Assembly: GCF_011308835.1 (NCBI RefSeq)
Contig: NZ_JAAOHY010000001.1
Span: 434,001-498,000 of the forward strand
Reading direction: 5' to 3'
Source: Paracoccus xiamenensis
GTDB lineage: Bacteria > Pseudomonadota > Alphaproteobacteria > Rhodobacterales > Rhodobacteraceae
DNA: 64,000 bases
Shown: positions 43,008 through 56,928 of the stretch, one piece after another
Layout of the letters: every line of letters begins with the position of its first letter
Numbering within the stretch: the first letter of the stretch is position 1
The notes under the pieces: generated by a model
Databases searched by the model: none
The model's input: only the letters and a program-made list of their open reading frames with translations
What the model was told of the DNA's origin: nothing
Program-made: the position numbers and the translations under genes

Positions 43008-44030
43008 TCACGGCAAGCTGACTGTCTCGACCGCGACGTGCAGGCTGCGTGCGGCCTCGATCAGCCGATCCTGCGTTGTGCGACGGCCGGCATCACGCGC
43101 GGCCTGACCCAGTAGCCCGCCGAGCGTAAAGCCACGCATCGCCTGCCAGTCATGACCGCCCGCGCGCGCCCAGTCGAAAGCCGCGCGGTCGGGCAGGGCG
43201 ATCGTCAGCTGCGCGCCTTGGGTCACCAGATCCGCCGCCGCGGGTCCAAGGATGTCGATGCAGCCGTAAAAATGCTGTCCGGCCGCGACGTTGCCGGGTG
43301 GTTCAAGCGCCAGGATCGACGGCGCTGTCTTCGCAAGGGTCAGGCCGGTGGCTTCCGCGCGATAGGCGATGTCGGCAGGCGATCCACCCAGCAGCGCGAA
43401 TTGCGATGCTCCGGCCTGTTTCAGCGCGTTCATGCTGGCATTCAGGCAGGCCTCGGTGATCGCGGGCGCGGCTTCGTCGGCCAGCCGGGAAAGGGGGACG
43501 CCCGGCCCGGTTTCTGTCAGGACCATCTGGCGACCATAGGCGCCGCCGCTGGCATTGAAGCGTTCGGCGGCGGCGGCAAAGCCCTGATCGAGCGCATCGT
43601 TGCCGCTTCTCAGCACTTGGATCCGATCAGGCAGGATCGCGTCGCGCGCGGCCTCCAACCCCTGAAGATAGGCGATAAGCGAATCCATCACCTCGGGCTG
43701 GGCGTCATAGCGCGGCATCGCGGCATTCAGCATCCGCCCATCCGGTGCCCGCCCGTCACGCAGCACGCGCAACACCGCCTCGGCGTCATAGGGCGTGGGT
43801 CGCTGCGTCAGCGCCGACCAATGGATCGGCGGAAACGCGGTGCCGCCTTCCGCCCGGCCATCGCCATCCGCGCCGTGACAGCCCGCGCAGGCAAAGCGGC
43901 TGGCAGGCAGTCGCACCGCACCGCCACCGATGATCGCTTGCGCCCCTTCACCGCGCAGAAACAGCGCCTCGCCCGGCGTTTCTGCCGTCGCAGCCGTTCC
44001 CGCCAGCAGCAAGATCAGGACGAGACGCAT
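43008..44030 (-). CDS. c-type cytochrome fused to a binding-protein-like domain
   Basis: A 340-aa exported protein. A signal peptide ends about ATAE (residue 17). The N-terminal cytochrome c domain has the haem motif C48-A-G-C51-H52, with MLNAAMPRYD supplying likely methionine ligands, and ends near residue 120. The remaining 220 residues (from VLRSGNDALDQGFAAAAERFNASGG) resemble a type I periplasmic binding fold, an inference from the FAAAAERFNASGGAYGR pattern. It overlaps the SCO gene by 16 bp and ends the giant-oxidase operon. It may pass electrons from the oxidase to the respiratory chain. Confidence 0.75.
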   Translation of the reverse strand: MRLVLILLLAGTAATAETPGEALFLRGEGAQAIIGGGAVRLPASRFACAGCHGADGDGRAEGGTAFPPIHWSALTQRPTPYDAEAVLRVLRDGRAPDGRMLNAAMPRYDAQPEVMDSLIAYLQGLEAARDAILPDRIQVLRSGNDALDQGFAAAAERFNASGGAYGRQMVLTETGPGVPLSRLADEAAPAITEACLNASMNALKQAGASQFALLGGSPADIAYRAEATGLTLAKTAPSILALEPPGNVAAGQHFYGCIDILGPAAADLVTQGAQLTIALPDRAAFDWARAGGHDWQAMRGFTLGGLLGQAARDAGRRTTQDRLIEAARSLHVAVETVSLP

Positions 44031-44629
44031 TCAGGCACGTCACGCGCCATCGCGATCAGCGCCTTGGGTTCCGGGATGCCGATGATGCGGGTGAATGCGC
44101 CCGAACAGAAATCGCCGACAAGGAACATCGGGTCATGCGTTTCGATGCTGTCAAAAGCGACGCCCAGACTGTCCAGCAGCGGCGAGGTTCCCCGCATGCC
44201 CGCCGTCAGCCACAGCCAGCGATCAGAGGCGGAAAATTCCGCCGCGGTCTTGCGCAAGGCCTCGGGGGTGTCATTCGCGGGGTCGATGGCAACGCTGACC
44301 AGGGTGATCCGGTCGTCCTGTCCGGCCAGATCCTGATCGACGCCGTAAAGGATGCCGTTGGTGATGTCGCAGACGGTTTCGCAATTCGTGTACATGAAGC
44401 TGACGATCACCGGCCCGGTGTTGCGCATTCGGGTCGTAAAACCCTCGGTGCGGCCGGCGGCGTCGGTGACCGGAATGTCGGGCGGGGCCAACTGTTCCTG
44501 CGTATTGCTTTGCATCTGCATCTGCATCTGCATCTGCGATCCGTCCGCATGCTGCATGGTGCCATGAGCGTGGACGGAAAAGGCGGCAAGGGACGCAAGG
44601 GCGGCGATCGGGATCAGGGGATGTTTCAT
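44015..44629 (-). CDS. SCO1/SenC-family copper chaperone
   Basis: A 204-aa exported protein of the SCO family, thioredoxin-fold proteins that bind copper and serve in metallation of copper oxidases. The CxxxC copper site is C83-E-T-V-C87 and the third ligand is H165 (SIETHDPMF). A signal peptide ends about VHA. Before the fold lies a His/Met/Gln-rich stretch (HAHGTMQH then four Met-Gln units), encoded by a 6-base repeat. Its start overlaps the stop of the preceding gene (ATGA); GGAG precedes ATG 44629. Probably dedicated to the giant oxidase. Confidence 0.88.
   Translation of the reverse strand: MKHPLIPIAALASLAAFSVHAHGTMQHADGSQMQMQMQMQSNTQEQLAPPDIPVTDAAGRTEGFTTRMRNTGPVIVSFMYTNCETVCDITNGILYGVDQDLAGQDDRITLVSVAIDPANDTPEALRKTAAEFSASDRWLWLTAGMRGTSPLLDSLGVAFDSIETHDPMFLVGDFCSGAFTRIIGIPEPKALIAMARDVPECVSS
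44511..44534 (-). repeat. Hexanucleotide repeat encoding Met-Gln units
   Basis: Four perfect tandem copies of TGCATC (plus strand), followed by TGC, encode the (Met-Gln)n run of the SCO protein. Unit gain or loss would keep the frame and change only the number of methionines. Confidence 0.9.
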
Positions 44630-46428
44630 GGTGGCTCCAATACAAAGGGGTGAAAGCCCGGACCGTCGGACGCGGTGACGGCGATGACAGTCAGGTCGTG
44701 GACCGGCACCGAGACGGGCTGGATTGCGCGGCCGTCCGTATCCAGCTGCAGCTGTGACAGCTTGCGCCACGGGCTGCGCAAACCGCTGACCAGCACGGTC
44801 AGGTGGCCAGCGGGGGCGGGCGCGCCGCTTTCGGTCTGAAAGCGCAGATAGACCTGTGTCGGATCGGCCGCGTCACGCAGCGCGCTGAGCCTGCCGGGCT
44901 GTTCTTCGGGCGGTGCCTCGCCCGATGTTTCGGGCAGGGCTGCGCAGAAGGATAGCGCACCGATGCCGGTCGTGGTGACCAGTTCGTACAGGCCGGGTGC
45001 TGGCAGCACGGCGGTTGTGTGGAACTGCCCGCGAGAGACCTCGCGGAAGCTGCGATCAAAGGTTGCCACCACGGCCGGGACGCCGCCGCGCAGGCGCAGC
45101 GCGCTCATCGGCGGGGAATCTCCCATCACGCTGGAATCGTGGATCAGGAAGCCGGTATAGTTCTGCGCGTGAACCGCCAGCATGCCCGGTTGCGGCCAAA
45201 GGGCCGCCAGCATTCCCGGACCCTGACGCAGCGGGCTTTGCGGCTGGCCCAGCATCACGTCGCGCAGCAGTGATGGCTTGTCGGGGGACACCGTCGTCAG
45301 GTCCAGTACGCCGACGCGCGACTGATCGGCCAACATCAGGTAAGCCGCGCGGTCGGTAAAGGCGATCTCGGACACAGGAACGCCGGTGGTGATGCGCTGA
45401 ACGGCGGTACCGCTGGCCACGTCGATCAGCGCGGCGGGCTGCAGGCTGGTCGGGTCAAAAGCCAGGATCCACCGGCCGTAGATGCTGGACACGATCCGCG
45501 TTGCCGGATCGGGCAGGGCGACGCGCACCGGGTGGTCCGGCGTATCGAGGTAATGGATCAGCACCTCTTGTCCGCGCAGTCGGGCAAGGGCGAAGCTGCC
45601 GGTATCGTCGTCCAGCGGCAGCGCATCGACGGCCCCCTGATCGATGCGCAGCAGAACTTCGGCACTGGCGGCATCCAGCAGGATGCTGCTGGAGGTGCCG
45701 GCCACCGCAAGCGTGTCGCCGCGGATGCCGGGGGTCAGGGTCAGCGCATCTTGAACAATGGTTTCAGGGGGCAGGGGTGGCTGCACATGCAGGACTGCGC
45801 CCTCGCCCTTGCCCTCGGCCCGGTCCAGCACCCAGACCGCGCCACCGGGGCCCGGAAACGCCGCGACGGGCTGCGAAAGCTCCCCGACGACCGCCCTGCT
45901 GGCGGCGGTGGGTACGTCGATGGCCTGCACCTCGCCCCGGTCAGGGAAGGCCGCAAGGAAGCGGCGGTTATCGATATCTGCCACCAGACTGGCCGGTGGG
46001 CTGTCGAAACGTGCCGCCCCCATCAGATTGGCCGTGGCAAGGTTCAGTTCCGGGTCGGCGATGACGAAAGCGCCGTCGCGGCTGGCAACCCCGATCACCG
46101 GCCCGTTCAGCTTGATCGCGCCGGTGGGCAGCCGCGCCGTCGCCAGAAAGCTGCGCGCGGCCTCTGTGCAGTCCAGGTTGCTGTCCGAAACCGGCCGCAG
46201 CCAGCCGGCAAGCGTCAGCCCGGCCGGGGGATCGCGGCCAAGGCTGTTTGTCACCGTGACGGTGATGTCGAAGGGGACGCCCGGATCTATCCGGCCCAGG
46301 CTTTGACCATCAGCACCCGTAAATGCGACCGAGGCATGCAGCGCCGGGCGCAGCTCTCGCGATTGCTGGCCATGCGCGGCGGGGGCAAGCGCCACGGTCG
46401 ATGCGGCGATCAGAACGGATAGGCGCAT
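44626..46428 (-). CDS. Secreted propeller-like protein of unknown function
   Basis: A 600-aa exported protein with a signal peptide (MRLSVLIAASTVALAPAAHG, cut near residue 20). The mature part opens with an Ig-like beta segment (VPFDITVTVTN), then repeats of roughly 40-50 residues with short hydrophobic strands and DVxT/DRAE turns (for example AIDVPTAASRAVVG, WVLDRAEGKGEG, GVLDLTTVSPDKP) that suggest a YncE/cytochrome-d1-type beta propeller, and ends with another Ig-like region. The repeats are weak, so the fold is inferred. Overlaps the giant oxidase by 19 bp and the SCO gene by 4 bp, all on one transcript. Confidence 0.75.
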   Translation of the reverse strand: MRLSVLIAASTVALAPAAHGQQSRELRPALHASVAFTGADGQSLGRIDPGVPFDITVTVTNSLGRDPPAGLTLAGWLRPVSDSNLDCTEAARSFLATARLPTGAIKLNGPVIGVASRDGAFVIADPELNLATANLMGAARFDSPPASLVADIDNRRFLAAFPDRGEVQAIDVPTAASRAVVGELSQPVAAFPGPGGAVWVLDRAEGKGEGAVLHVQPPLPPETIVQDALTLTPGIRGDTLAVAGTSSSILLDAASAEVLLRIDQGAVDALPLDDDTGSFALARLRGQEVLIHYLDTPDHPVRVALPDPATRIVSSIYGRWILAFDPTSLQPAALIDVASGTAVQRITTGVPVSEIAFTDRAAYLMLADQSRVGVLDLTTVSPDKPSLLRDVMLGQPQSPLRQGPGMLAALWPQPGMLAVHAQNYTGFLIHDSSVMGDSPPMSALRLRGGVPAVVATFDRSFREVSRGQFHTTAVLPAPGLYELVTTTGIGALSFCAALPETSGEAPPEEQPGRLSALRDAADPTQVYLRFQTESGAPAPAGHLTVLVSGLRSPWRKLSQLQLDTDGRAIQPVSVPVHDLTVIAVTASDGPGFHPFVLEPP

Positions 46429-49400
46429 TGATCCTTCGCTGCCACTTCCAGCAGCCCCCAGGTTCCGCCCGCGCGGGTGGTGGTCGGGCCGTCATGCCAC
46501 AGATAGGTGCCCGCCTTGATCCGGGGCGACAGCCAGGCCGAGATGGTCTTGCCCGGCGCCACCAAGGCCGAACGCGGGAAGCCGAAGCCCGGGAACAGGT
46601 CGTCATAATCGGCGCCGTTCATCACGAAGGCGCGTTGACGGGCGCGGCCGCCGGGATGGATGACGCGAATGACCACCTGTTCGCCCGCGCAGGCCTTCAG
46701 CCTGATCGCATTGGGATGATCGACCCAGAAACGCGCCGGGAATTTCAGGGCGTTCAGATCGTCGCTGTTTTCCACGGACTGGCCGCCAAATGACAAGCCC
46801 TGCACGAAAGCCGGAGAGCGATAGCTGACGCCGAGGTCGCCAAGGTCATAGCTGTCATCGCAATGGATACACTCGGGCACCATTTTCAGCGGCAGGCCGC
46901 GGATGCCCTCGACCTCGCTGCCGTCGCCGACCCCGTCGTCGTTCGTGTCCCATTTCCAGGTGATGTTGCTGTTGTTGTCCCACAGGTTCAGACCATCCTG
47001 ATAGTACAGGACAAATTCGCGCACCTGCTCGGCCTCTGTCCCTTCCGGTGCGTCGTCCAGCGGTTCCGCCGTATACAGTGCCGGGCTGCCATCGCCTGCG
47101 CCATCGGGTGCATTTTCGGCATGTGTGACCTGGCAATAGTTGTAGGGGCCGCGCTCCTCGCATTCGGCGGCTTGCGGGGCCGAGATCGGGACGTCGTCTG
47201 CACCGCCGCCCCAGCTGCTGGGCACCACGTCGATGGCACCGAACAACCCATGCGGCGCATGACCGATCACGTCCGAGGTCGAGCGGATCGGCACCGCACC
47301 GAAGGCATAGGGAATCCAGTGCACCTTCTCGTTCAGTTTCGCGCGTGCGATCGGACCCGCCACTTCCATCAGGCGCTGATGCGCGGCAGCGGCATTAAAC
47401 GCGCAATTGGCCTGACCCGTGCAGGCCAAACTGGTCAGCCCGGCCATGCTTTCGGCCGAGGCGTCGATGATGGGCGGGTTCATGACAGACAGGCTTTGCG
47501 CAAGCGCGCCAGTCAGGTCCTGCGGCTGAACCGCGATCCCATATTCCACGCCCAGCAGGCTGAACACGCCCGGACCATCGTCGCGGTCGAGCGCCTGATG
47601 CGTCAGGAACCCGGTTTCGCCCGGTGCGGGAACGTTGCTGGTGCCATCGGTCAGCCAGGGCTGCGGACCGGCCGCGAGTTCATCGGCGATCGACTTTACG
47701 ATATCCGCAATCAGCAAGTTCAGCAGATCCTGCTCGTTCAGATTGGGGGTCGTGACACCCGCCCCCAGATTCACGCGCATCCGCCCGGCATAGAACATGA
47801 ACGGATTGCTGACACCGACCGCATCACCCTCAGCGGCGGGCAGGGCGGGTGCGCCGTAGCCATAGGCCAGCGGCAGGTCGCGGTTCATGTCCATGCCCGG
47901 CAGGGCGACGCTCAGCCCCAGCTGTGCCGAGGGGCGCAGCCCGCCCAAGGGGCCGCTGGCGGGTTCCAGCGCGCCGATGCGCTTGCCAGATTCCGGCTTT
48001 GTGGGAACCGGATCGGTGTTCAGCGGTGTGATCGGCGGCAAGCGGGCATCGCCCAGCTCATCACGCAGCCCGTCATTGCTGTCCTTCAGCGCGTTGACAA
48101 AGCGCAGCCGCACACAATCGCCGGCCTGAACACGCAGAGTCATCGGACGCGGGCCGTGCGGATAGGCATCACTGATCGCTTTATTCAGCGTGGTACGCGT
48201 CAGCGTGTCCCAATTCCCGCCATCCAGTCCATCTTCTACAAGCACTGTGGGCGACAGCAGCGCCAGCATCAGCCCGTCCGGGTCATAGCGCCCGCGCCCG
48301 TAATCGGTTCCGCCGGGGCGACCGTCACCTATGGGCCAGATGTCGTCCGTTTCCACGGCGGCCAGAACGGCTTCGATGACTCGCTGTTTCGGGCCATTTT
48401 CGGATGTTTGGCCCTCAGGCAGATAGGGGCAGGACAGCCCGCCCGTCCCCATGGGCAGAACCTGCTCCTCACCCTCAACGGATGTTTCGCGCGCCGCACC
48501 GAACGGCATGGAGCCGAGGCGGTCGAATATCTGCGTGCCTGCCGGTGACAGCTTGGCGGGGTCGGCGCTTGTATTGCGGGTGTTTAGCGATGCCAGCGTG
48601 GCCGGATCTGGCGTGTCCTGATTGCCATAGATACGCAGCAACCCCCATGCCCCGTTCCACAGCGCATCGACCGAGCCGAAATTGTACAGGTAATCCGAAG
48701 AATCCTGCGCGATGCTGATATCTTCATCAGAATTGGTCGTCGCCGCATCAGCTTCGGGTTGCGCCCATTCCGCGCTGTGCGGAAGGTCCGCGCGCAGCGA
48801 CCCGGTCATTTCGAAATGTTCCGAAATGCCGATCTCCTGCGCGAAGGTCAGCCCTTCCAGGTTGTCGCAACCCGCCAGCGCGGTCTCATATTCCTCCCAA
48901 TCGGAGCCGTGGCCGGCGTGATCCGGCTCATCGTCGCGCCATTGCACATAGTCGTCCGGTCGGCCCCGCAGGCCGATGCCGGCACGCATGCAGCGCTCGC
49001 GCAGTGAAGGGTTGTTGTTGCGGTCATCCGACATGCCCAGCAATTGCCGGCCGGCGGGATAGGTCTGGTCGATATTGCGCTTGAAGGCCAGCCCGGCGAC
49101 GTTGAAGGTGTGCTGCACCTCTTGCGCGCCCTGTATCAGGCGGATGACCAGCCGTTCGTTCTGATAGGCTTCCAGCACCGGGGTTTCGGGATCGCCATGC
49201 AGTCCTGACATCAGCGCGCCGCCCATGTCCCCATATTCGCCCGCCATCTGCCAGTCGATCGAACATTCGCCGAAGGCAGCGGCTTTCAGTGCCCTGACGA
49301 CCGGGCTTTCGGGGTTTGTATGGCTTCCATCCGGGTTCAGCAGCGGATTGCCCTTGGCATCAGTGAAATGCACGCCCTGAACGCCCATGCCCAAAAGCCG

Positions 49401-52400
49401 GCAATCATTGCTGTGACCCGGCCCGTCGGGATTGGTTTGTTCCTTGTTACCGATGCGCAGCGGCAGCGGCGCGTTGCGGTAGCTGACCAGATAGGGGTCA
49501 TGGTGGTCGACCGAGATCGATTCCGGCCGCGCGGGCGGGGCAACCGGCTTGGCCAAAGCCGCGATCGAGGTATTCGCGGGCGGCACCAGATGGCCAGCCG
49601 CGCGGGCGCGATAGGAAACCATATGCGCGAACAGGTCGCGCACCTCGCGACCGGGTGCGGCCGGATTGGTGAACAGGTCGCCGCCGACATAGCGGGCCTT
49701 GTGGACATCGTCGCGATATGCCCCGCCCGCAATCCATGCCGGCGGGATGGTTTCGCCGGCCATGTACCAGCTGCGCGGGCTAACCGCGTTATCCGGTTCG
49801 ACATTCACCCCGCAAAGCTGTTTCAGGATCAGCGGGCTTTGGCGCCATTTCGCCTCGCAATAGATCTGACCCATCCCGAACTGTTCGGCATAGGGCGGAT
49901 CGCTGGGGTCCAGTGCGTTATTCGGGCCAAGGCGCGAGGTACGGCGCAGTTCCGCCTCGCTGGTGCGGTCGCGCGGGTCGTAGAGAAGTGCGAAATCTGC
50001 AATCGAGATCGCAAATTCGCGATAATCCGGATGGGCGGGGTTCTTGCCCTTCAGGCTGACCTTGCGTTTGGTGCCGTCCCAGACCTCGCCGCCCCATGCG
50101 ACGCTGCCTTCGCGCCGATCCTCTGACAGCGGAGTCACGCAACTCGCCCCGTCCTCGGTGCAGATCCGGTCCAGTTCAGGCTTCGGCTGACCGGCGGGAA
50201 GATCGGCCAGATCGGCAAAGTCGACCTCGCTCGCATTCACCCCCGGCTCGATCACCAGCGCCGAGTAGAAGCCATGCTGCTGGATCGAGGAGGGGCCGAA
50301 ATGGTCATGCGTAAAGACAGTGCGCATCGTTCTGTCGCGCAGTGTCGGCGCAGCATCGTTGCCGTTAAAGGTCAGGATCGGATCGGCAAACCAGCGTTGC
50401 ACGGTCGTCTGGAACCGGTCACGGTTTTCGCCAAGCGGACGTCGCCAGATCTCCTTGGCGGCCTCGCTGACGCTGTTGCCGGTACATTCACCGGCAATCT
50501 GGGTGATGCCGGCCGCGTCTTCGACCTGGGTGACCGTGCCCGCCGTGGATGCGCAGCGGCGGGCCGACAGCTCATCGGCGGCGAAGGTGCCGTCTTCGTA
50601 GTTCCAGCCATTGCCCGACCCGTCCGAAGAGGTAACGTCGAATTTCACCAGATGGATATGCTGGCCAATCGTGTCGGTCGGGGTCTTGACCTGGAAATCG
50701 TCAAGCTCCAGCTCCTTGGGCAATTCGTTGGTGTGGCGGAATTCGATGCATTCGCCGGACAGCGCCCGGAAGAAGAAGGGTTCCTCGGTATCGCTGACCG
50801 TGGGCGAAATGGGTTTCGGCCCGGTCGTCAGAACCCGATCCTTGAAGCGTTCCGATTCCGAGGTGCGGACATTGATGCGGGCCTGCGGATCGTGCCAGCC
50901 AGCGCGATTGACCACCATGTCCAGCTGCACCGCCGATACCTCGTAACGCCGATAGCCGATCAGCAGCGGATCGCGCCAGAAGTTCTGATCCGCCAGATAC
51001 AGCGGGTCGATGCCTGCATTTGCGCTTTCGCGTCCGGCGGGCGAGGTGCCGCAGGGATCGGCGAAGGGCGCGCCGGGTTTCGGGGGTGAGCCGTTCACAT
51101 AGATCCCGCGGCTGGTGTCTTGGGGATCATCTCCATTCGGCAATTCCGCGTGCGAGGTGGGATAATTCCCGCCGAACCCGGCGCCGCTTGCCGGGACAGT
51201 CAGATCGGTGCCGTTCGCATTCGACAGGGCCAGCTGGTCATTCAGTCCGTCCGCCCGATAAAGCAGTCCATTGTAATGGAACCCCATCGCCCCGCGTTCC
51301 AGCCGGGTGCCGTCATTGGGCAGCGTTTCGATATTCGCCCGCGTCAGGTGCCCGCTGAGATCGCCAAGCGCAAAAGCCTTGGCCACCACCTGCGACGTCA
51401 GCATGCCGCGCTCGGCCTGATCCAACGTATCGAATTCATCTGGCTCCAGCATGTTGGCGACCGCGTCGGGCAGGTAAAAGCCCAGCTCGCGATCCGATCC
51501 GTCGGTCACGACATGCCGCCCCAGCCCGCCATCCAGCCAGCCATCGGCGATGCTGCGGGTGTCGACCTCGGTCAGGATGGTCTGACCGGCATCCAGATCG
51601 ACGATGCCGTCCTCGTCACTCGGATCGGTCGGGGCCAGCTTACGGGCTATATCCAGCGGTGCCTGCGGCGGGCGGTGGCCCGGCTGGCCGGCGATATAGA
51701 AGGGAAAGCCGGGCATAGGCGTCTTCGCCTCGTCGGCCAACCGCGGGACGGGCCCGCTGGTGTCCACATCATCCTCGCTGGCATAGGTCGGCAGCAGCGG
51801 CAGCGGTTCGCCCGGCAGCGGGATCAGCGCCGGGATCGGTGTGCCATAGCTTTCATCCGGGTCAGCGCCATTCGTCGGCCCGATCCAGCGCCCGGTCAGC
51901 CGCTCGACCGTGCCCGGCCGGCTGTGGCCGCGATCTGCGGCTTCGGGAAACTCGGTCGAAAGCCCGGGATCGACCTGTCCGTCGGGCATCTTGCGGGTGC
52001 CGTCTTCCAGCACATCATGGACGCGCCACAAGGCCCACATGCCCTGCGCGAAATGCGGGTAAAGGTGACAGTGAAAGATGGAATCCCCGATGGTGCGGTT
52101 CCGGTTGCCCGACCCTTGCGTATCCCACCAGCCCTTTGGCGCACCGTTCAGGTTGTTCATGCCGCCGTGATAGATGTTATAGGTAAAGCCCTGCTGTGGC
52201 GCGACGGTCTGACTGTCCAGATAAGAGCCTCGGCTGGGGTCATTGCCGGCAAACCACTGATGCGCATGCAGGTGGAACACATGGGTTTCCTTCGGTCCGG
52301 CGTGGAAATTGCGGAAGACCACCGGATCGTTCAGATAGGAATGGTGGACGTTCGACGGATCATCGGCATACCATTCCAGCAAGGCCGGATCGCCATTGGC

Positions 52401-53930
52401 CCATGAGGTCAGGAAAAACTCCTCGTAAAGGCATTCCTTGCATTCGGATGCCGGGCCCATCCCCTTGCGGTTCGCCAATAGCAGCGAGCCCATCCCCGAG
52501 GCGCCGTAATTGATCGCGAAGCCGTCCTTGACCCCGGCAAGCTGGCCAAGTTTTCCGAGTTCTTCGAAGTTCTTGGTGTAGAAGGTTTTCAATTCGTCAT
52601 GGAAGAAGACCGAGAACTCGCGGAAAGCGCTATAGATCGGCTCTGAGGTTGTTGCTGGCGCCGGTGCCTGATCCTGCCGGCAATCGTCGCCCTCGATCGC
52701 GGGATCGCAATAGATGATCGCGTTCAGGTCGGAATGGACAATCTCCAGACGCTTTGCGCCGGCAAACTCATCCTGTACCGGCATCCCGCCACCATCCGGC
52801 TGGTCCAGTACCATGGCCATGTTCAGCAGCGGGGTGCGTTGCAGCGGATCATTCGCATCGGCCGGTTGGGGGGCATCATCGCCCTGATCCTGCAGATATT
52901 CGAACTGGGTTTTTTCATAGTCGATGATCTGGGTCCGGGCATGGCGGCGCCCGTTTTCCGCGCGCGGCCAGACGGCGTCGAATGTCTTGGCCGAGGTCTG
53001 GCTGCGATAGGCGCGCGCGCCTTCGCGTTCGACCATCAGTGCGCCAAAAAGCCCATGCACGATAGAGCCGCCTTCGCCTTCGCCACCGGCGGGCGCGGCC
53101 TGAGAGGCGAAGAAATAGGTGCCCTCGCGTTCCAGGCGGTATTTGCACAGAAAGCTGTTCTCCGCGCCCGGTGCGGCATAGCCGGCGCCGATGCAGGCAT
53201 CGTTGATCGCTCCATCAATCGGCAGCGGGGTCAGCCCCTGGATCAGCAGGTTGACACCGCGCGTATTGGGCCAGTTGGGGGCATCGGTCAGCGTGCTTGC
53301 CGCGCTTGCGTTGCCGGGGGAGCCGTCAGTGGTGCAAAGAACCTCGCCATGGCGTTCAAGGCTTGCGGAACCCACGGACAGATCCGGCCTGACGGCTTCG
53401 GCATTGCTGTCCTGCGTCGATTGCGGCGGGCAGAAATCGCGTGAAAAATCGGGCGATTCCGGCTGCGCCAGCCAATTCGTGACACGAATGATCAGCGTAT
53501 CATCGACATTAGCGCGCAGAACCAGCGGCCGCGGCCGCTTACAATCGCGCAACCTGACCTGACCGGGCGATAAGGTTTGCCCCGGATGGCCATGTTCCGC
53601 GCCGGTCTGAGTGGTGCAATCGGATGCCGTCAGCGGCAATGCGTCAGCGGTTTTTTGGTTTATGGGCGACAGGTCGCGATCAAGCGCGAAAATCATGCCG
53701 AATGGATTGAACGATCCAAAACGGTTATAAACCAATGTCTGATCCAGCGCCCCTATATCGGCACAGATTACCCTGCCGGTATCTTTTGCCTCTCGGCAGA
53801 TATCGGCCATTTCCTTGCGTATTGTCGGGGGATCTGCCGGTTTCGCGGCTTGCGCGTAAAGTCCCAAGGGAACCAACGCGAGGAAAACGCCCGCGACAAC
53901 TGCGGGAAACAGGAAACTGACTCTGGGCAT
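46410..53930 (-). CDS. Giant multicopper oxidase-like protein (about 2,506 aa)
   Basis: An exported protein (signal MPRVSFLFPAVVAGVFLALV, cut about QA, residue 27) many times longer than a normal multicopper oxidase and built from several cupredoxin-like segments. Numbering from ATG 53930, the H-x-x-H-x-H motif is H550/H553/H555, and the type 1/type 3 motif is H620-C621-H622-x3-H626-x4-M631. Two more HxH motifs with oxidase-like context are HIH 1091-1093 and HDH 1208-1210 (then QQHGF, H1219). The usual gene order is therefore reversed: the C-terminal type motifs come first. Further cupredoxin-like segments (GTYFFASQ, HGLFGA, LWHDGP) lie near residues 280, 2230 and 2490. It resembles the giant oxidases (MnxG/MofA) tied to Mn(II) oxidation; this is inferred. 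The start is ATG 53930 with GGAG just upstream; GTG 53948 is an alternative. Confidence 0.82.
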   Translation of the reverse strand: MPRVSFLFPAVVAGVFLALVPLGLYAQAAKPADPPTIRKEMADICREAKDTGRVICADIGALDQTLVYNRFGSFNPFGMIFALDRDLSPINQKTADALPLTASDCTTQTGAEHGHPGQTLSPGQVRLRDCKRPRPLVLRANVDDTLIIRVTNWLAQPESPDFSRDFCPPQSTQDSNAEAVRPDLSVGSASLERHGEVLCTTDGSPGNASAASTLTDAPNWPNTRGVNLLIQGLTPLPIDGAINDACIGAGYAAPGAENSFLCKYRLEREGTYFFASQAAPAGGEGEGGSIVHGLFGALMVEREGARAYRSQTSAKTFDAVWPRAENGRRHARTQIIDYEKTQFEYLQDQGDDAPQPADANDPLQRTPLLNMAMVLDQPDGGGMPVQDEFAGAKRLEIVHSDLNAIIYCDPAIEGDDCRQDQAPAPATTSEPIYSAFREFSVFFHDELKTFYTKNFEELGKLGQLAGVKDGFAINYGASGMGSLLLANRKGMGPASECKECLYEEFFLTSWANGDPALLEWYADDPSNVHHSYLNDPVVFRNFHAGPKETHVFHLHAHQWFAGNDPSRGSYLDSQTVAPQQGFTYNIYHGGMNNLNGAPKGWWDTQGSGNRNRTIGDSIFHCHLYPHFAQGMWALWRVHDVLEDGTRKMPDGQVDPGLSTEFPEAADRGHSRPGTVERLTGRWIGPTNGADPDESYGTPIPALIPLPGEPLPLLPTYASEDDVDTSGPVPRLADEAKTPMPGFPFYIAGQPGHRPPQAPLDIARKLAPTDPSDEDGIVDLDAGQTILTEVDTRSIADGWLDGGLGRHVVTDGSDRELGFYLPDAVANMLEPDEFDTLDQAERGMLTSQVVAKAFALGDLSGHLTRANIETLPNDGTRLERGAMGFHYNGLLYRADGLNDQLALSNANGTDLTVPASGAGFGGNYPTSHAELPNGDDPQDTSRGIYVNGSPPKPGAPFADPCGTSPAGRESANAGIDPLYLADQNFWRDPLLIGYRRYEVSAVQLDMVVNRAGWHDPQARINVRTSESERFKDRVLTTGPKPISPTVSDTEEPFFFRALSGECIEFRHTNELPKELELDDFQVKTPTDTIGQHIHLVKFDVTSSDGSGNGWNYEDGTFAADELSARRCASTAGTVTQVEDAAGITQIAGECTGNSVSEAAKEIWRRPLGENRDRFQTTVQRWFADPILTFNGNDAAPTLRDRTMRTVFTHDHFGPSSIQQHGFYSALVIEPGVNASEVDFADLADLPAGQPKPELDRICTEDGASCVTPLSEDRREGSVAWGGEVWDGTKRKVSLKGKNPAHPDYREFAISIADFALLYDPRDRTSEAELRRTSRLGPNNALDPSDPPYAEQFGMGQIYCEAKWRQSPLILKQLCGVNVEPDNAVSPRSWYMAGETIPPAWIAGGAYRDDVHKARYVGGDLFTNPAAPGREVRDLFAHMVSYRARAAGHLVPPANTSIAALAKPVAPPARPESISVDHHDPYLVSYRNAPLPLRIGNKEQTNPDGPGHSNDCRLLGMGVQGVHFTDAKGNPLLNPDGSHTNPESPVVRALKAAAFGECSIDWQMAGEYGDMGGALMSGLHGDPETPVLEAYQNERLVIRLIQGAQEVQHTFNVAGLAFKRNIDQTYPAGRQLLGMSDDRNNNPSLRERCMRAGIGLRGRPDDYVQWRDDEPDHAGHGSDWEEYETALAGCDNLEGLTFAQEIGISEHFEMTGSLRADLPHSAEWAQPEADAATTNSDEDISIAQDSSDYLYNFGSVDALWNGAWGLLRIYGNQDTPDPATLASLNTRNTSADPAKLSPAGTQIFDRLGSMPFGAARETSVEGEEQVLPMGTGGLSCPYLPEGQTSENGPKQRVIEAVLAAVETDDIWPIGDGRPGGTDYGRGRYDPDGLMLALLSPTVLVEDGLDGGNWDTLTRTTLNKAISDAYPHGPRPMTLRVQAGDCVRLRFVNALKDSNDGLRDELGDARLPPITPLNTDPVPTKPESGKRIGALEPASGPLGGLRPSAQLGLSVALPGMDMNRDLPLAYGYGAPALPAAEGDAVGVSNPFMFYAGRMRVNLGAGVTTPNLNEQDLLNLLIADIVKSIADELAAGPQPWLTDGTSNVPAPGETGFLTHQALDRDDGPGVFSLLGVEYGIAVQPQDLTGALAQSLSVMNPPIIDASAESMAGLTSLACTGQANCAFNAAAAHQRLMEVAGPIARAKLNEKVHWIPYAFGAVPIRSTSDVIGHAPHGLFGAIDVVPSSWGGGADDVPISAPQAAECEERGPYNYCQVTHAENAPDGAGDGSPALYTAEPLDDAPEGTEAEQVREFVLYYQDGLNLWDNNSNITWKWDTNDDGVGDGSEVEGIRGLPLKMVPECIHCDDSYDLGDLGVSYRSPAFVQGLSFGGQSVENSDDLNALKFPARFWVDHPNAIRLKACAGEQVVIRVIHPGGRARQRAFVMNGADYDDLFPGFGFPRSALVAPGKTISAWLSPRIKAGTYLWHDGPTTTRAGGTWGLLEVAAKDQCAYPF

Positions 53931-54063
53931 GACTCCACCCTCAACCACTTGGTTAGTGATTCAACGGATTTAGGCATCGATTTTTTAATAAGATAGTTGC
54001 CAATTAATGTATCATAATTTTCGATTCGTTCAAAGAAGTCATCGAAAGTGAGGTTATATTTCG
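53931..54063 (+). promoter_or_regulatory. AT-rich divergent spacer between oxidase and protease genes
   Basis: This 133-bp spacer is markedly AT-rich and must hold both promoters. AACCA-CT-TGGTT (53943-53954) is a perfect palindrome next to the oxidase start. CATAAT (54013-54018) is a -10-like element for the plus-strand gene, though no well-spaced -35 is apparent. GAGG (54050-54053) is a ribosome site ten bases before the TTG start of the protease gene. Confidence 0.45.
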
Positions 54064-56928
54064 TTGATTAACATTGATTCAGCTATTCATCTGCGACCTT
54101 TGGTGGCAGAGGACCGCGGGGTCGATGCCAGACACCCGTCCCGGGTTGGCCGCGTCATCCGCCGGATCCGCCCCGGCATCTTGACGCTGGATGGCGATCT
54201 GGTCGATCTGGACGGCTCGGTTGTCGATGCGGATACCAAATTGCCATGGCTTGGCTGTGCCGCACGACAGAAGGCGGTCGATATTGTGCGGCAATGGTCC
54301 GGGGCCATCGGCCGCATTGATGTCATGCAAAAGGATGGTAGCTGGTTGCCGGTTGGAAGCTGCTGGGTCACCAGCGCCGGCGGCAACGGCGCCAATGCCC
54401 GCATCATCACCGCCGGGCATCTGCTATGTGCGATGACGAAGCCCGGCAACAGCTTTGCCCGCGGGCGCGTGCGGACAGCCTTCGACGCTGCGCCGATGCG
54501 AGAAACGCGGGTCACTCTTGCCGATAACCCCGAAGACAATCCCGGCGATCTGCGCGTGACGGCGGTCATCTGGGCGCATTGGTACTGGGATCTGGTGATT
54601 TGCGAACTCGACGCCGAGTTGCCGGGGCTGGCAGTGCCGCCATTGGCCGGTGCGCAAGATAAGCCAAGCACCGAAATGGCCGTCTTTGGCTATCCAATGA
54701 CCCAAGGGACGATTGACCCGGCCCTTGATGACAGCGGCTTTGCCCAGATATTCGAGGGCGATCTGAAGACCAGGCGCCTGTCGCCTGGCCTGTTCGTCGA
54801 TACCGAGACGTCGGGGATCAATGTCGACAGCGACGTAGCGGCGGCGGCAGTAAGCTTGTGCCATGACGCATCGACGCTTGCCGGCAGTTCCGGCTCGCCC
54901 GTCTTCTGCCTGCAAAGCGGCAATATTGTCGGTCTGCATTTTCGCGGTGGCGGCTATTACAATGATGACAACCCGGGCGTTCCGACGCCCGCCCGCTATG
55001 CCAACCTGACGGTTCCCCTGATGCGGGCGATGATGGCCGAGCCGCTGTTGGCGATCGAAATGCAAGGCGGTCCGATGCCGGCGGGCATGGCGGTCAAGGA
55101 AAATTTCAAGGGTCTGTGGAAAGCCAGCAACCTGAATAAGCTGGACGAATCCGAATCGATATTCGTGACCAACGCCCCGAAGGAGCTGCCCGCGGATCTG
55201 TTACGCGCGGTCGCTCCGGACCGGCCGGACAACCGTGATTACTTCTATACCCCGCCGCTTAGCGCGCCCCGCGATAAGATCCCCCGTGACCGGGACATGA
55301 CGGTCTTCGACAGGGCGAAGATCCTCAATCAGGGTGCCGATCCGGCCTGTGTCGGGTTCGCACTGGCTGCGCTGATCAATTTGCAGCGTCGTCTGGCCGA
55401 TCAGAAGGCTTTGCTGGTCAGCCCCCGGATGCTGTACGAGATGGCGCTCAATCACGACGAATGGCTTGATGAGGCGGTGGGCGGCACCAGCCTGCGCGCC
55501 GCGATCAAGGGGTTCGTGTACAGTGGCGTCTGCAGCGATGATGAAGCGCCCTATTTCGCGCCGCAAACCGATTGGCGCCTGAACCGGACAATCGCCGAGG
55601 ATGCCAAGAAGGTGATGCCCGGCACCTATTACCGGCTGCGCCACAATCTGGTCGATTTTCAGGCCGCCATTCAGGAAGCCGGTGGGATCATCATCTCTGC
55701 CTATATTCACGATGGCTGGTTTGCTTCGGGCGAAAACCGCATCCGCACGATCCAGCTGCGGCAGAGCAGTCTGGCAGATCGCGCGGCCCATGCCTTCATT
55801 GCCGTCGGCTATGACGAAACCGGGTTCATCATCCAGAATTCCTGGGGCAAGAACTGGGGCAATTGGGGCAAGCGCGCGGGCTTTGCGCGCTGGACCTATG
55901 ACGACTGGGCCCAGAATGTGATCGACGCATGGGTGCTGCGGCTGGCACCGTCGACGCCAAAGACCTTTGGCCTGCAGCCGGTCCTGTCACAGGGCGAAGA
56001 TCTCAGCATGCCCAAACCCTTGCGCCGCCTTCCAAGGCCGCATCGTTTCGCGCTGCTGGGCCATATCGTGCATGTTGAACGCGACGAGGTGGTGGTGCGC
56101 GGCCGGCTTGGCCTTGGGTTGGCGCCACTGCGCGAGGCAGCAGAGCTGTTGCGGGCCAAAGAGCTGGGCGATATTCGCCACATCCTGCTGATCTATCACG
56201 ATCCTTTCCTTGGCGCGGACGCGATCACGCGCATTGCCGCCTTCCAGACCGAGACATTTCTTCAGAACGGCATCTTTCCCCTGCATATCGCATATGGCGT
56301 GGACGAGGTGGCGACGATCAGTTCCCGGATGCTGTACGAGGCCGGAATCGTGCAGGACCGCTTTGGGGCCTCGCTTTCCGAGGCCAGCGGCTATCTGGAG
56401 CGGCGCGCGGGACGTCTGTGTGGCCGGTTGGTGCGGGATTACGGCGACGGCGTGGCGCAGGCCTCTGCCCCTGGCGGGCCGCTTTGGCAGGCACGCGCGG
56501 CGCTGTGCCTGGAGACCGCGAAGGATCTGCAGGTGTCAGCCCTGTCATTCGGCGCTGGCAGCATCGCGGCGCTGACCCAGGCCCGTCTGTCGCGGGCGGC
56601 GCGCAATCCCGCGCTGAACAGGCTGCTGCTGGTGGGCGGTATCGGGGCCCGTCCGACAGAGGCAGAGCTTGGGCCGACACGCGTTCACGAATGGCAATTG
56701 CCCTCTGCCGTGGAAATCGGTGCCGTCCCCGCCTATGCCGGCGACTGGAACGACCTTGTGCAGGCCGTCCAAGGCGGAGAGAGCCGCCCGCGCGTCGATG
56801 CCACGGCGGTTTCCGAACTGCCCGGCACGATTGCCGCCTGTTGTGTCGATCCGGTGCTGCTGAATGCGGTGATAAAGGCGGTAAAGGGCCGGGCGCCATC
56901 GGCGCAAAGCTGCTTTCGAACAGTGTAG
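54064..56928 (+). CDS. Trypsin-like/papain-like dual protease fusion with C-terminal hydrolase-like domain
   Basis: A 954-aa protein with no signal peptide or membrane helix, probably cytoplasmic. Domain 1 (about 85-330) is a chymotrypsin/V8-like serine protease: H119 in ITAGHLL, D176 in YWDLVICEL and S276 in AGSSGSPVF. Domain 2 (about 390-625) is a papain-like C1 protease: Q423, C429 (QGADPAC), H576 in AAHAFIAVGYD and N592 in IIQNSWGKNWG, with the same spacing as papain (Gln to Cys 6, His to Asn 16). Domain 3 (about 640-954) has an ALSFG nucleophile-elbow-like motif (S828) and HILLIYHDPFLGADA, suggesting an alpha/beta hydrolase; this is weak. The start is TTG 54064, since no ATG or GTG upstream is in frame; GTG 54103 is an alternative. 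It is divergent from the giant-oxidase operon. Confidence 0.85.
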   Translation: MINIDSAIHLRPLVAEDRGVDARHPSRVGRVIRRIRPGILTLDGDLVDLDGSVVDADTKLPWLGCAARQKAVDIVRQWSGAIGRIDVMQKDGSWLPVGSCWVTSAGGNGANARIITAGHLLCAMTKPGNSFARGRVRTAFDAAPMRETRVTLADNPEDNPGDLRVTAVIWAHWYWDLVICELDAELPGLAVPPLAGAQDKPSTEMAVFGYPMTQGTIDPALDDSGFAQIFEGDLKTRRLSPGLFVDTETSGINVDSDVAAAAVSLCHDASTLAGSSGSPVFCLQSGNIVGLHFRGGGYYNDDNPGVPTPARYANLTVPLMRAMMAEPLLAIEMQGGPMPAGMAVKENFKGLWKASNLNKLDESESIFVTNAPKELPADLLRAVAPDRPDNRDYFYTPPLSAPRDKIPRDRDMTVFDRAKILNQGADPACVGFALAALINLQRRLADQKALLVSPRMLYEMALNHDEWLDEAVGGTSLRAAIKGFVYSGVCSDDEAPYFAPQTDWRLNRTIAEDAKKVMPGTYYRLRHNLVDFQAAIQEAGGIIISAYIHDGWFASGENRIRTIQLRQSSLADRAAHAFIAVGYDETGFIIQNSWGKNWGNWGKRAGFARWTYDDWAQNVIDAWVLRLAPSTPKTFGLQPVLSQGEDLSMPKPLRRLPRPHRFALLGHIVHVERDEVVVRGRLGLGLAPLREAAELLRAKELGDIRHILLIYHDPFLGADAITRIAAFQTETFLQNGIFPLHIAYGVDEVATISSRMLYEAGIVQDRFGASLSEASGYLERRAGRLCGRLVRDYGDGVAQASAPGGPLWQARAALCLETAKDLQVSALSFGAGSIAALTQARLSRAARNPALNRLLLVGGIGARPTEAELGPTRVHEWQLPSAVEIGAVPAYAGDWNDLVQAVQGGESRPRVDATAVSELPGTIAACCVDPVLLNAVIKAVKGRAPSAQSCFRTV

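Follow-up and report, generated by a model that had tools for sequence, protein, structure and literature searches.

The 64,000-nt stretch of Paracoccus xiamenensis DNA analyzed here (contig NZ_JAAOHY010000001.1; hereafter the window) carries a gene for a three-domain protein, hereafter the fusion, which is transcribed divergently from an operon headed by a giant multicopper oxidase. The features of this locus, in window coordinates, are as follows:

54064–56928, plus strand: trypsin–papain–pseudo-alpha/beta-hydrolase protein (the fusion), 954 aa, TTG start, no signal peptide by eye
54355–54936, plus strand: trypsin-like domain, residues 98–291 (H119, D176, S276), Pfam Trypsin_2, E 2.2e-10
55213–55953, plus strand: papain-like domain, residues ~384–630 (Q423, C429, H576, N592), Peptidase_C1, xylellain 3ois
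55981–56925, plus strand: alpha/beta-hydrolase-fold domain with a predicted dead active site, residues ~640–954, G830 in place of Ser
53949–54063, no strand: divergent intergenic region, 115 bp, between the longest open reading frames of fusion and oxidase
46410–53948, minus strand: MnxG-type giant multicopper oxidase, 2,512 aa (NF041487, 9bxa), signal peptide by eye
44626–46428, minus strand: protein of ~600 aa with a signal peptide by eye and no Pfam family, next gene of the oxidase operon
44015–44770, minus strand: SCO1/SenC copper chaperone (PF02630, E 9.7e-13)
43008–44030, minus strand: c-type cytochrome (PF00034, E 1.1e-4, above cut-off)

As the preliminary description had proposed, the fusion carries two complete proteases on a single chain, and the seven catalytic residues were found in the translated reading frame at the positions it had given. 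Both Pfam matches were above cut-off: Trypsin_2 and a His/Asp/Ser triad present in 16/16 fusions place the first domain in peptidase family S1, while Peptidase_C1 (residues 419–602, E 2.3e-7), the Gln/Cys/His/Asn set, and a papain fold place the second in family C1. In the predicted structure of the full-length protein (mean pLDDT 75.2, pTM 0.62), the papain domain was the confident part, and it matched xylellain (3ois, Z 27.4, 242 residues aligned) and pro-cathepsins; the trypsin part was modeled with low confidence, i.e., several blocks <60. The papain domain resembles xylellain, papain, and the cathepsins of family C1 in fold and catalytic residues, and differs from them in having a trypsin on one side and the dead hydrolase on the other. 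Inspection by eye agreed with the earlier reading that the protein lacks a signal peptide.

Next, we evaluated how widely this architecture occurs and how strictly it is conserved. A profile search of genome contigs with the single fusion protein as query gave no match, and a search with an alignment of four fusions yielded 224 relatives, the best 80 of which were used. Overall, 16 distinct fusion loci were found, including five reached via the oxidase (L234–L237 and L241) and leaving out H2 and H5, near-copies of two fusion records. All taxonomically assigned fusions belong to the Rhodobacterales, which bears on the rarity of this combination, and outside Paracoccus the fusion occurs in L011, L063, L064, and G641. 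Despite pairwise identities of 29–69%, H119, D176, S276, Q423, C429, H576, and N592 are invariant in 16/16 distinct fusions, all with the same domain order, indicating that both proteases are under selection as working enzymes, with activity predicted for each. A pseudogene reading was rejected, since the frame is open and every protease catalytic residue is kept.

The preliminary description had also seen a third domain, with ALSFG as a possible nucleophile elbow. The alpha/beta-hydrolase fold part of that claim held: modeled alone (pLDDT 89.3, pTM 0.90), the C-terminal part adopts this fold, and nearly all of the 50 matches listed in structure comparison are alpha/beta hydrolases by title (best Z 12.3), although a Foldseek search with the same model gave no match at E ≤ 0.001. 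The elbow did not hold, as the column aligned with GxSxG is S828-F829-G830-A831-G832, with Gly830 at the nucleophile position, where a Sinorhizobium fredii relative has GHSAG. All 16 fusions have Gly, and none has Ser, in the nucleophile column, and the late conserved His is absent in all 11 tested (in L011, a His lies three columns off). Since neither the GxSxG nucleophile nor the catalytic His of a working hydrolase is retained, the domain is predicted to be a hydrolase without catalysis.

The papain-hydrolase half has relatives in many lineages: those among the best 80 of 224 come from Gammaproteobacteria, Desulfobacteria, Nitrospinae, Acidobacteria, a Planctomycetota MAG, and others. These relatives function elsewhere without an MnxG-type oxidase, an observation that counts against a dedicated partnership of protease and oxidase. 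In 96 deduplicated trypsin-less papain-hydrolase sequences, i.e., excluding six duplicate loci (L172, L173, L178, L181, L183, and L191) and seven where the simple gene caller did not call the papain gene (L055, L110, L112, L123, L129, L138, and L190), the nucleophile position carries Ser in 83 cases, Gly in 9, and Ala in 1 and is gapped in 3, with the late His kept in 82/96. We considered whether a nearby second protease always goes with a dead hydrolase, and dropped this idea: Ser and His are both lost in 9/9 trypsin-less relatives with an adjacent GDSL-caspase gene, whereas both are kept in 7/7 with an adjacent separate trypsin gene, and the hydrolase-caspase protein of L206 has an intact GHSAG. 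The loss of catalysis thus tracks fusion to a trypsin or a GDSL-caspase neighbor, not any second protease. Ser and His are also both lost at L016, where the next gene lies beyond the examined stretch.

The fusion is flanked by the oxidase operon on one side and a glycosyltransferase gene on the other, and the scanned flanking genes encode transport, sugar, sulfatase, and glycosyltransferase functions by Pfam. The oxidase is homologous to MnxG, matching the copper_ox_MnxG model NF041487 (E 9.5e-140) and the MnxG structure 9bxa (E 7.4e-63) and having in common with MnxG the copper motifs ETHVFHxHxHQW, GDSIxHCHLYP, and HDH...QQHG. It differs in being twice as long as the 9bxa chain (1,227 residues), in falling far below the curated NF041487 equivalog cut-off (467 vs 3100 bits), and in having an adjacent protease gene; its manganese oxidation is putative. 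Homologs of the ~600-aa protein, for which no Pfam family was matched, follow the oxidase at other loci too. The gene order of the operon is also annotated on plasmids of Paracoccus aminovorans, P. yeei, and Sphingobium; in Shinella, a hypothetical protein takes the fourth place, and Roseomonas has an extra small gene.

The association of the fusion with this exported oxidase operon, a conserved partner that the preliminary description had not named, was then evaluated from both sides. With the protease side as query, an oxidase gene was immediately adjacent and divergent in 11/11 fusions (the Paracoccus xiamenensis locus, plasmid records L011–L013, L062, L063, L064, L066, L067, G641, and G796, excluding L234–L237 and L241). 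This survey contained 13 oxidase genes, all beside fusions (two came from duplicate copies of loci among the 11), and no oxidase gene was found in it at trypsin-less papain-hydrolase loci. Oxidase and fusion distances were strongly correlated (Mantel r 0.913; 0/5000 permutations reached that value). Judging from these sequences, the two genes are divergent neighbors that are inherited together. The hexamer GATTCG occurs in 14/22 oxidase–protease intergenic regions (null mean 7.0, maximum 13 in 500), and we set it aside as evidence of a shared promoter motif since it was chosen after inspection.

Starting from the oxidase, which is present in 11/380 genomes of the order, 2/318 of a class sample, and 21/125 Paracoccus genomes (own genome counted), we found a recognized protease in the divergent slot in 18/21 oxidase-bearing Paracoccus genomes. 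The slot is occupied by the fusion in 12 of these (G000, G884, G782, G902, G908, G913, G930, G941, G942, G945, G796, and G967), by a trypsin alone in two (G963 and G971), and in four (G756, G788, G939, and G947) by a hydrolase-caspase gene, behind which lies a gene encoding an HEVTH motif, with no recognized protease in the remaining three (G943, G950, and G887). By their coordinates, G884 and G941 correspond to plasmid loci. The caspase is firm at L206 and L207 (Pfam E 1.7e-20 and 1.6e-19), where the thermolysin-like match of the HEVTH protein is weak (Pfam E 0.052 and 0.085); the hydrolase-caspase assignments at L244 and L246 rest on in-house profiles. Beyond Paracoccus, the slot in Shinella (L210) holds a trypsin (E 1.1e-11) and a subtilisin (E 3.9e-22), both apparently secreted by eye, and that of Methylobacterium sp. 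DM1 a protein that carries the motif HEIGHGLNLPH and matches a zincin weakly (E 0.015). The weakness of the thermolysin-like and zincin-like matches counts against a dedicated partnership.

At seven further alphaproteobacterial oxidase loci (L203, L204, L205, L213, L214, L215, and L248), no protease was recognized in the slot by in-house profiles, annotation, and eye. The L203 neighbor, scored as no protease, resembles HslU, the ATPase part of a protease; the 419-aa neighbor in L245, with no protease signature by eye, was scored likewise, and L208, too near a contig end, was left out of this count. Protease-less oxidase loci therefore exist both within Paracoccus (3/21) and beyond it (these seven), and the oxidase family does not require a protease. 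The protease neighbors are not what chance would be expected to produce, since the whole P. xiamenensis genome has four Trypsin_2 matches and no caspases. By their recognized domains, other proteases fill the oxidase-adjacent slot in other lineages.

How often the slot was filled anew can be examined from the trees. In an oxidase tree (35 sequences; quick method, SH-aLRT support only, some long branches), all 16 fusion loci fall within a single 20-member clade, a separate clade comprises the four hydrolase-caspase loci, the trypsin locus of G963 and that of Shinella lie in a third clade with three protease-less loci, and Methylobacterium falls outside. In a tree of trypsins, one clade (97/95) comprises those of all 16 fusions with that of G971 nested among them, while that of G963 lies outside; the Shinella trypsin, only remotely similar to the others, was left out. 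The G971 trypsin (P. yeei-type), which shares 98% identity with the trypsin encoded on a P. yeei plasmid, thus looks like the fusion minus its papain and hydrolase, suggesting that these two domains were lost. Taken together, the placements suggest four or five recruitments of a protease to the oxidase slot, or fewer if the fusion and G963/Shinella branches descend from an ancestor that already had a trypsin.

Given this pattern, protease and oxidase are very probably functionally coupled, and proteolysis seems integral to how this branch of MnxG-type oxidases works. Our best explanation, which we hold about evenly balanced between right and wrong, is that the fusion serves as a protease dedicated to an accessory, exported MnxG-type oxidase system, which also includes the ~600-aa exported protein, the SCO chaperone, and the cytochrome c. 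What is conserved would be the act of proteolysis rather than one fold, and the cytoplasmic double protease may be restrained or aimed by its dead hydrolase domain. If the two are coupled, a controlling role for the fusion is slightly favored: it may cut a component or regulator of the oxidase system and so set the timing or form of oxidase synthesis or activity. Direct cleavage of the oxidase itself appears rather unlikely. This reading is weakest on compartment: by eye, a signal peptide is present on the oxidase and absent from the fusion, so that the two should not meet in an intact cell; candidate routes around this compartment mismatch would be cleavage of the precursor before export, cleavage of a cytoplasmic regulator, or contact after lysis. 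A control switch, i.e., limited proteolysis of a precursor or regulator, would be likelier than a digestive enzyme, and a digestive or peptidoglycan-cutting role is not favored given a fixed oxidase partner and no signal peptide by eye.

The same compartment mismatch would be resolved if the fusion served quality control, i.e., if a cytoplasmic double protease degraded unexported oxidase precursor and prevented its pile-up, or copper trapping, in the cell, with precursor and protease both cytoplasmic before export. This reading, which we consider unlikely, also fits the divergent genes and their co-inheritance; however, the fusion has no attached unfoldase or ATPase, the trypsin and subtilisin of the Shinella slot both look secreted by eye, and oxidases of ~2,640–2,716 aa in G574, G010, and G619 have no recognized adjacent protease. 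Shared regulation only, in which both genes answer one signal (e.g., Mn, Cu, or stationary phase) and the protease acts on unrelated proteins, would suit both the 115-bp divergent promoter region and the separation of the two products into different compartments. Co-regulation nevertheless leaves different proteases in the same slot unexplained, and we regard it as quite unlikely.

Equally doubtful to us is a conflict or immunity module, with a protease triggered by infection or stress and the oxidase as its toxic redox executioner, although several patterns point in this direction. The preliminary description had likewise been reminded of effectors from bacterial immunity or cell-death systems. 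In VMAP ternary conflict systems, trypsin and hydrolase-caspase modules exclude or replace each other, as described in parts of PMC7159879, and tested pro-nuclease pairs join one kind of enzyme to trypsin or caspase partners according to parts of PMC12799240; in addition, the papain-hydrolase half neighbors trypsin-, caspase-, and peroxidase-bearing genes, and the distribution is patchy and often plasmid-borne. Against this, no STAND-type NTPase, nuclease, or sensor was recognized at the locus, and the only NTPase among the 13/16 genes called in 38–64 kb and scanned with Pfam is an ABC-transporter ATPase. The scanned flanks hold the transport, sugar, sulfatase, and glycosyltransferase genes noted above, the executioner oxidase would sit outside the cytoplasm, and a search of phage records with the fusion gave no match, for which reason a phage origin was rejected. 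The fusion is likewise not a known anti-phage protein by PADLOC, whose best match was a fragment (E 0.0077 over 21 residues).

The locus shares with VMAP systems, as far as parts of PMC7159879 describe them, the interchange of trypsin and hydrolase-caspase modules, and differs in that no MoxR, vWA, or VMAP component was found among the 13/16 Pfam-scanned genes in 38–64 kb. With the Hachiman, AVAST, and canu pro-nuclease/protease pairs, as described in parts of PMC12799240, it shares an enzyme paired with a trypsin or, at other loci, a caspase; the partner there is an MBL-type nuclease within a defense system, and here an exported copper oxidase without a defense core, with no MBL-type pro-nuclease adjacent to the fusion or among the 13 Pfam-scanned genes. 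Since these defining partners were not found, the locus was not classed as a VMAP or pro-nuclease system, and since the conflict systems also exchange trypsin and hydrolase-caspase, a loose kinship with them may exist.

A dedicated protease partner would bear on why bacteria make MnxG-type oxidases and how these are controlled. The exchangeable partner is a strong hint of proteolytic control in one branch of the MnxG family, and would show that a partnership with interchangeable proteases, seen before for nucleases, also exists for a redox enzyme. No description of a protease beside MnxG or of a trypsin–papain fusion was found in one open-access literature collection, searched mostly short of full text, or in passages of PMC4861733, and none of proteolytic processing of manganese oxidases at the same level or in passages of PMC6247904.

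In a stronger form of the dedicated-partner reading, which we think improbable, the oxidase would stay latent or unmade until a protease module fires, and this module would be exchanged between catalytic classes, forming a protease-gated redox system. The classes of the module would then be, with the same low probability, trypsin-papain, trypsin, hydrolase-caspase with metallopeptidase, and trypsin-subtilisin. In animals, protease cascades switch on phenoloxidases, and arthropod prophenoloxidase is a copper oxidase governed by trypsin-like proteases. A protease-gated oxidase would be a bacterial counterpart of these phenoloxidase-activating cascades, alike in that trypsin-like proteases govern a copper oxidase, and different in that homology of the oxidases is not claimed and the fusion appears cytoplasmic.

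If gating were true, a second, haem-based version could be seen in operons that combine papain-hydrolases with GDSL-trypsin or GDSL-caspase genes and haem peroxidases. Most surveyed papain-hydrolase loci have neither a peroxidase nor a GDSL-caspase or GDSL-trypsin neighbor. A GDSL-caspase gene adjoins the papain-hydrolase gene in nine loci, one of them in Sinorhizobium (assigned by Pfam for some), and the papain-hydrolase gene stands behind a peroxidase gene in L016 and L060. In four distinct loci (L049, L117, L179, and L180), a GDSL-trypsin gene is followed by an animal-type haem peroxidase gene and then by the papain-hydrolase gene, so that the trypsin and papain-hydrolase fused in P. xiamenensis occur elsewhere as separate neighbors, again near a redox enzyme.

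In four distinct loci of the window protein's family (L049, L117, L179 and L180), three consecutive genes encode a GDSL-trypsin, an animal-type haem peroxidase and a papain-hydrolase, i.e., a trypsin-less relative of the papain and alpha/beta-hydrolase half of the fusion. The L049 run is given here:

L049:5110-11177, GDSL-trypsin, haem peroxidase and papain-hydrolase genes

The GDSL-trypsin and papain-hydrolase of these runs are the counterpart of the window fusion in separate genes, although the redox enzyme differs: an animal-type haem peroxidase in these four loci, another kind beside the fusion. Across papain-hydrolase genes with a separate trypsin neighbour, the hydrolase Ser and His were both present (7/7), while both were gone in all nine genes with a GDSL-caspase neighbour (L017, L060, L061 and L184-L189).

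Other loci adjoin the giant MnxG-type oxidase itself. In L206, L207, L244 and L246, a hydrolase-caspase protein is followed by a ~600-aa HEVTH-motif protein, the latter with only a weak thermolysin match in loci of this type; the GHSAG elbow of the L206 hydrolase-caspase protein is intact. The window's own oxidase operon includes a ~600-aa protein with no Pfam family, homologues of which come after the giant oxidase in many loci examined:

L206:4039-8467, hydrolase-caspase and HEVTH-protein pair
window 44626-46428, ~600-aa protein of the oxidase operon, apparently with a signal peptide

The intergenic region at window 53949-54063 was compared with 21 homologues. Of these 22 regions, 14 contain GATTCG, where the null gives 7.0 on average, but since this motif was picked post hoc, after the regions had been inspected, the enrichment is a lead only.

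Two more Trypsin_2 proteins lie near each other in the P. xiamenensis genome (C21, L249:610-5838); in contrast to the fusion, each appears to carry a signal peptide. On Mesorhizobium onobrychidis plasmid pOM4, an alpha/beta hydrolase, a caspase, a 1,449-aa trypsin-PLD protein and a second trypsin form one run (L014:1716-9650) that looks like a conflict-type locus. On a Bradyrhizobium plasmid, as annotated, a non-specific endonuclease gene precedes two trypsin-type genes (L015:2494-7158), and this run adjoins a dpd-type 7-deazaguanine gene cluster.
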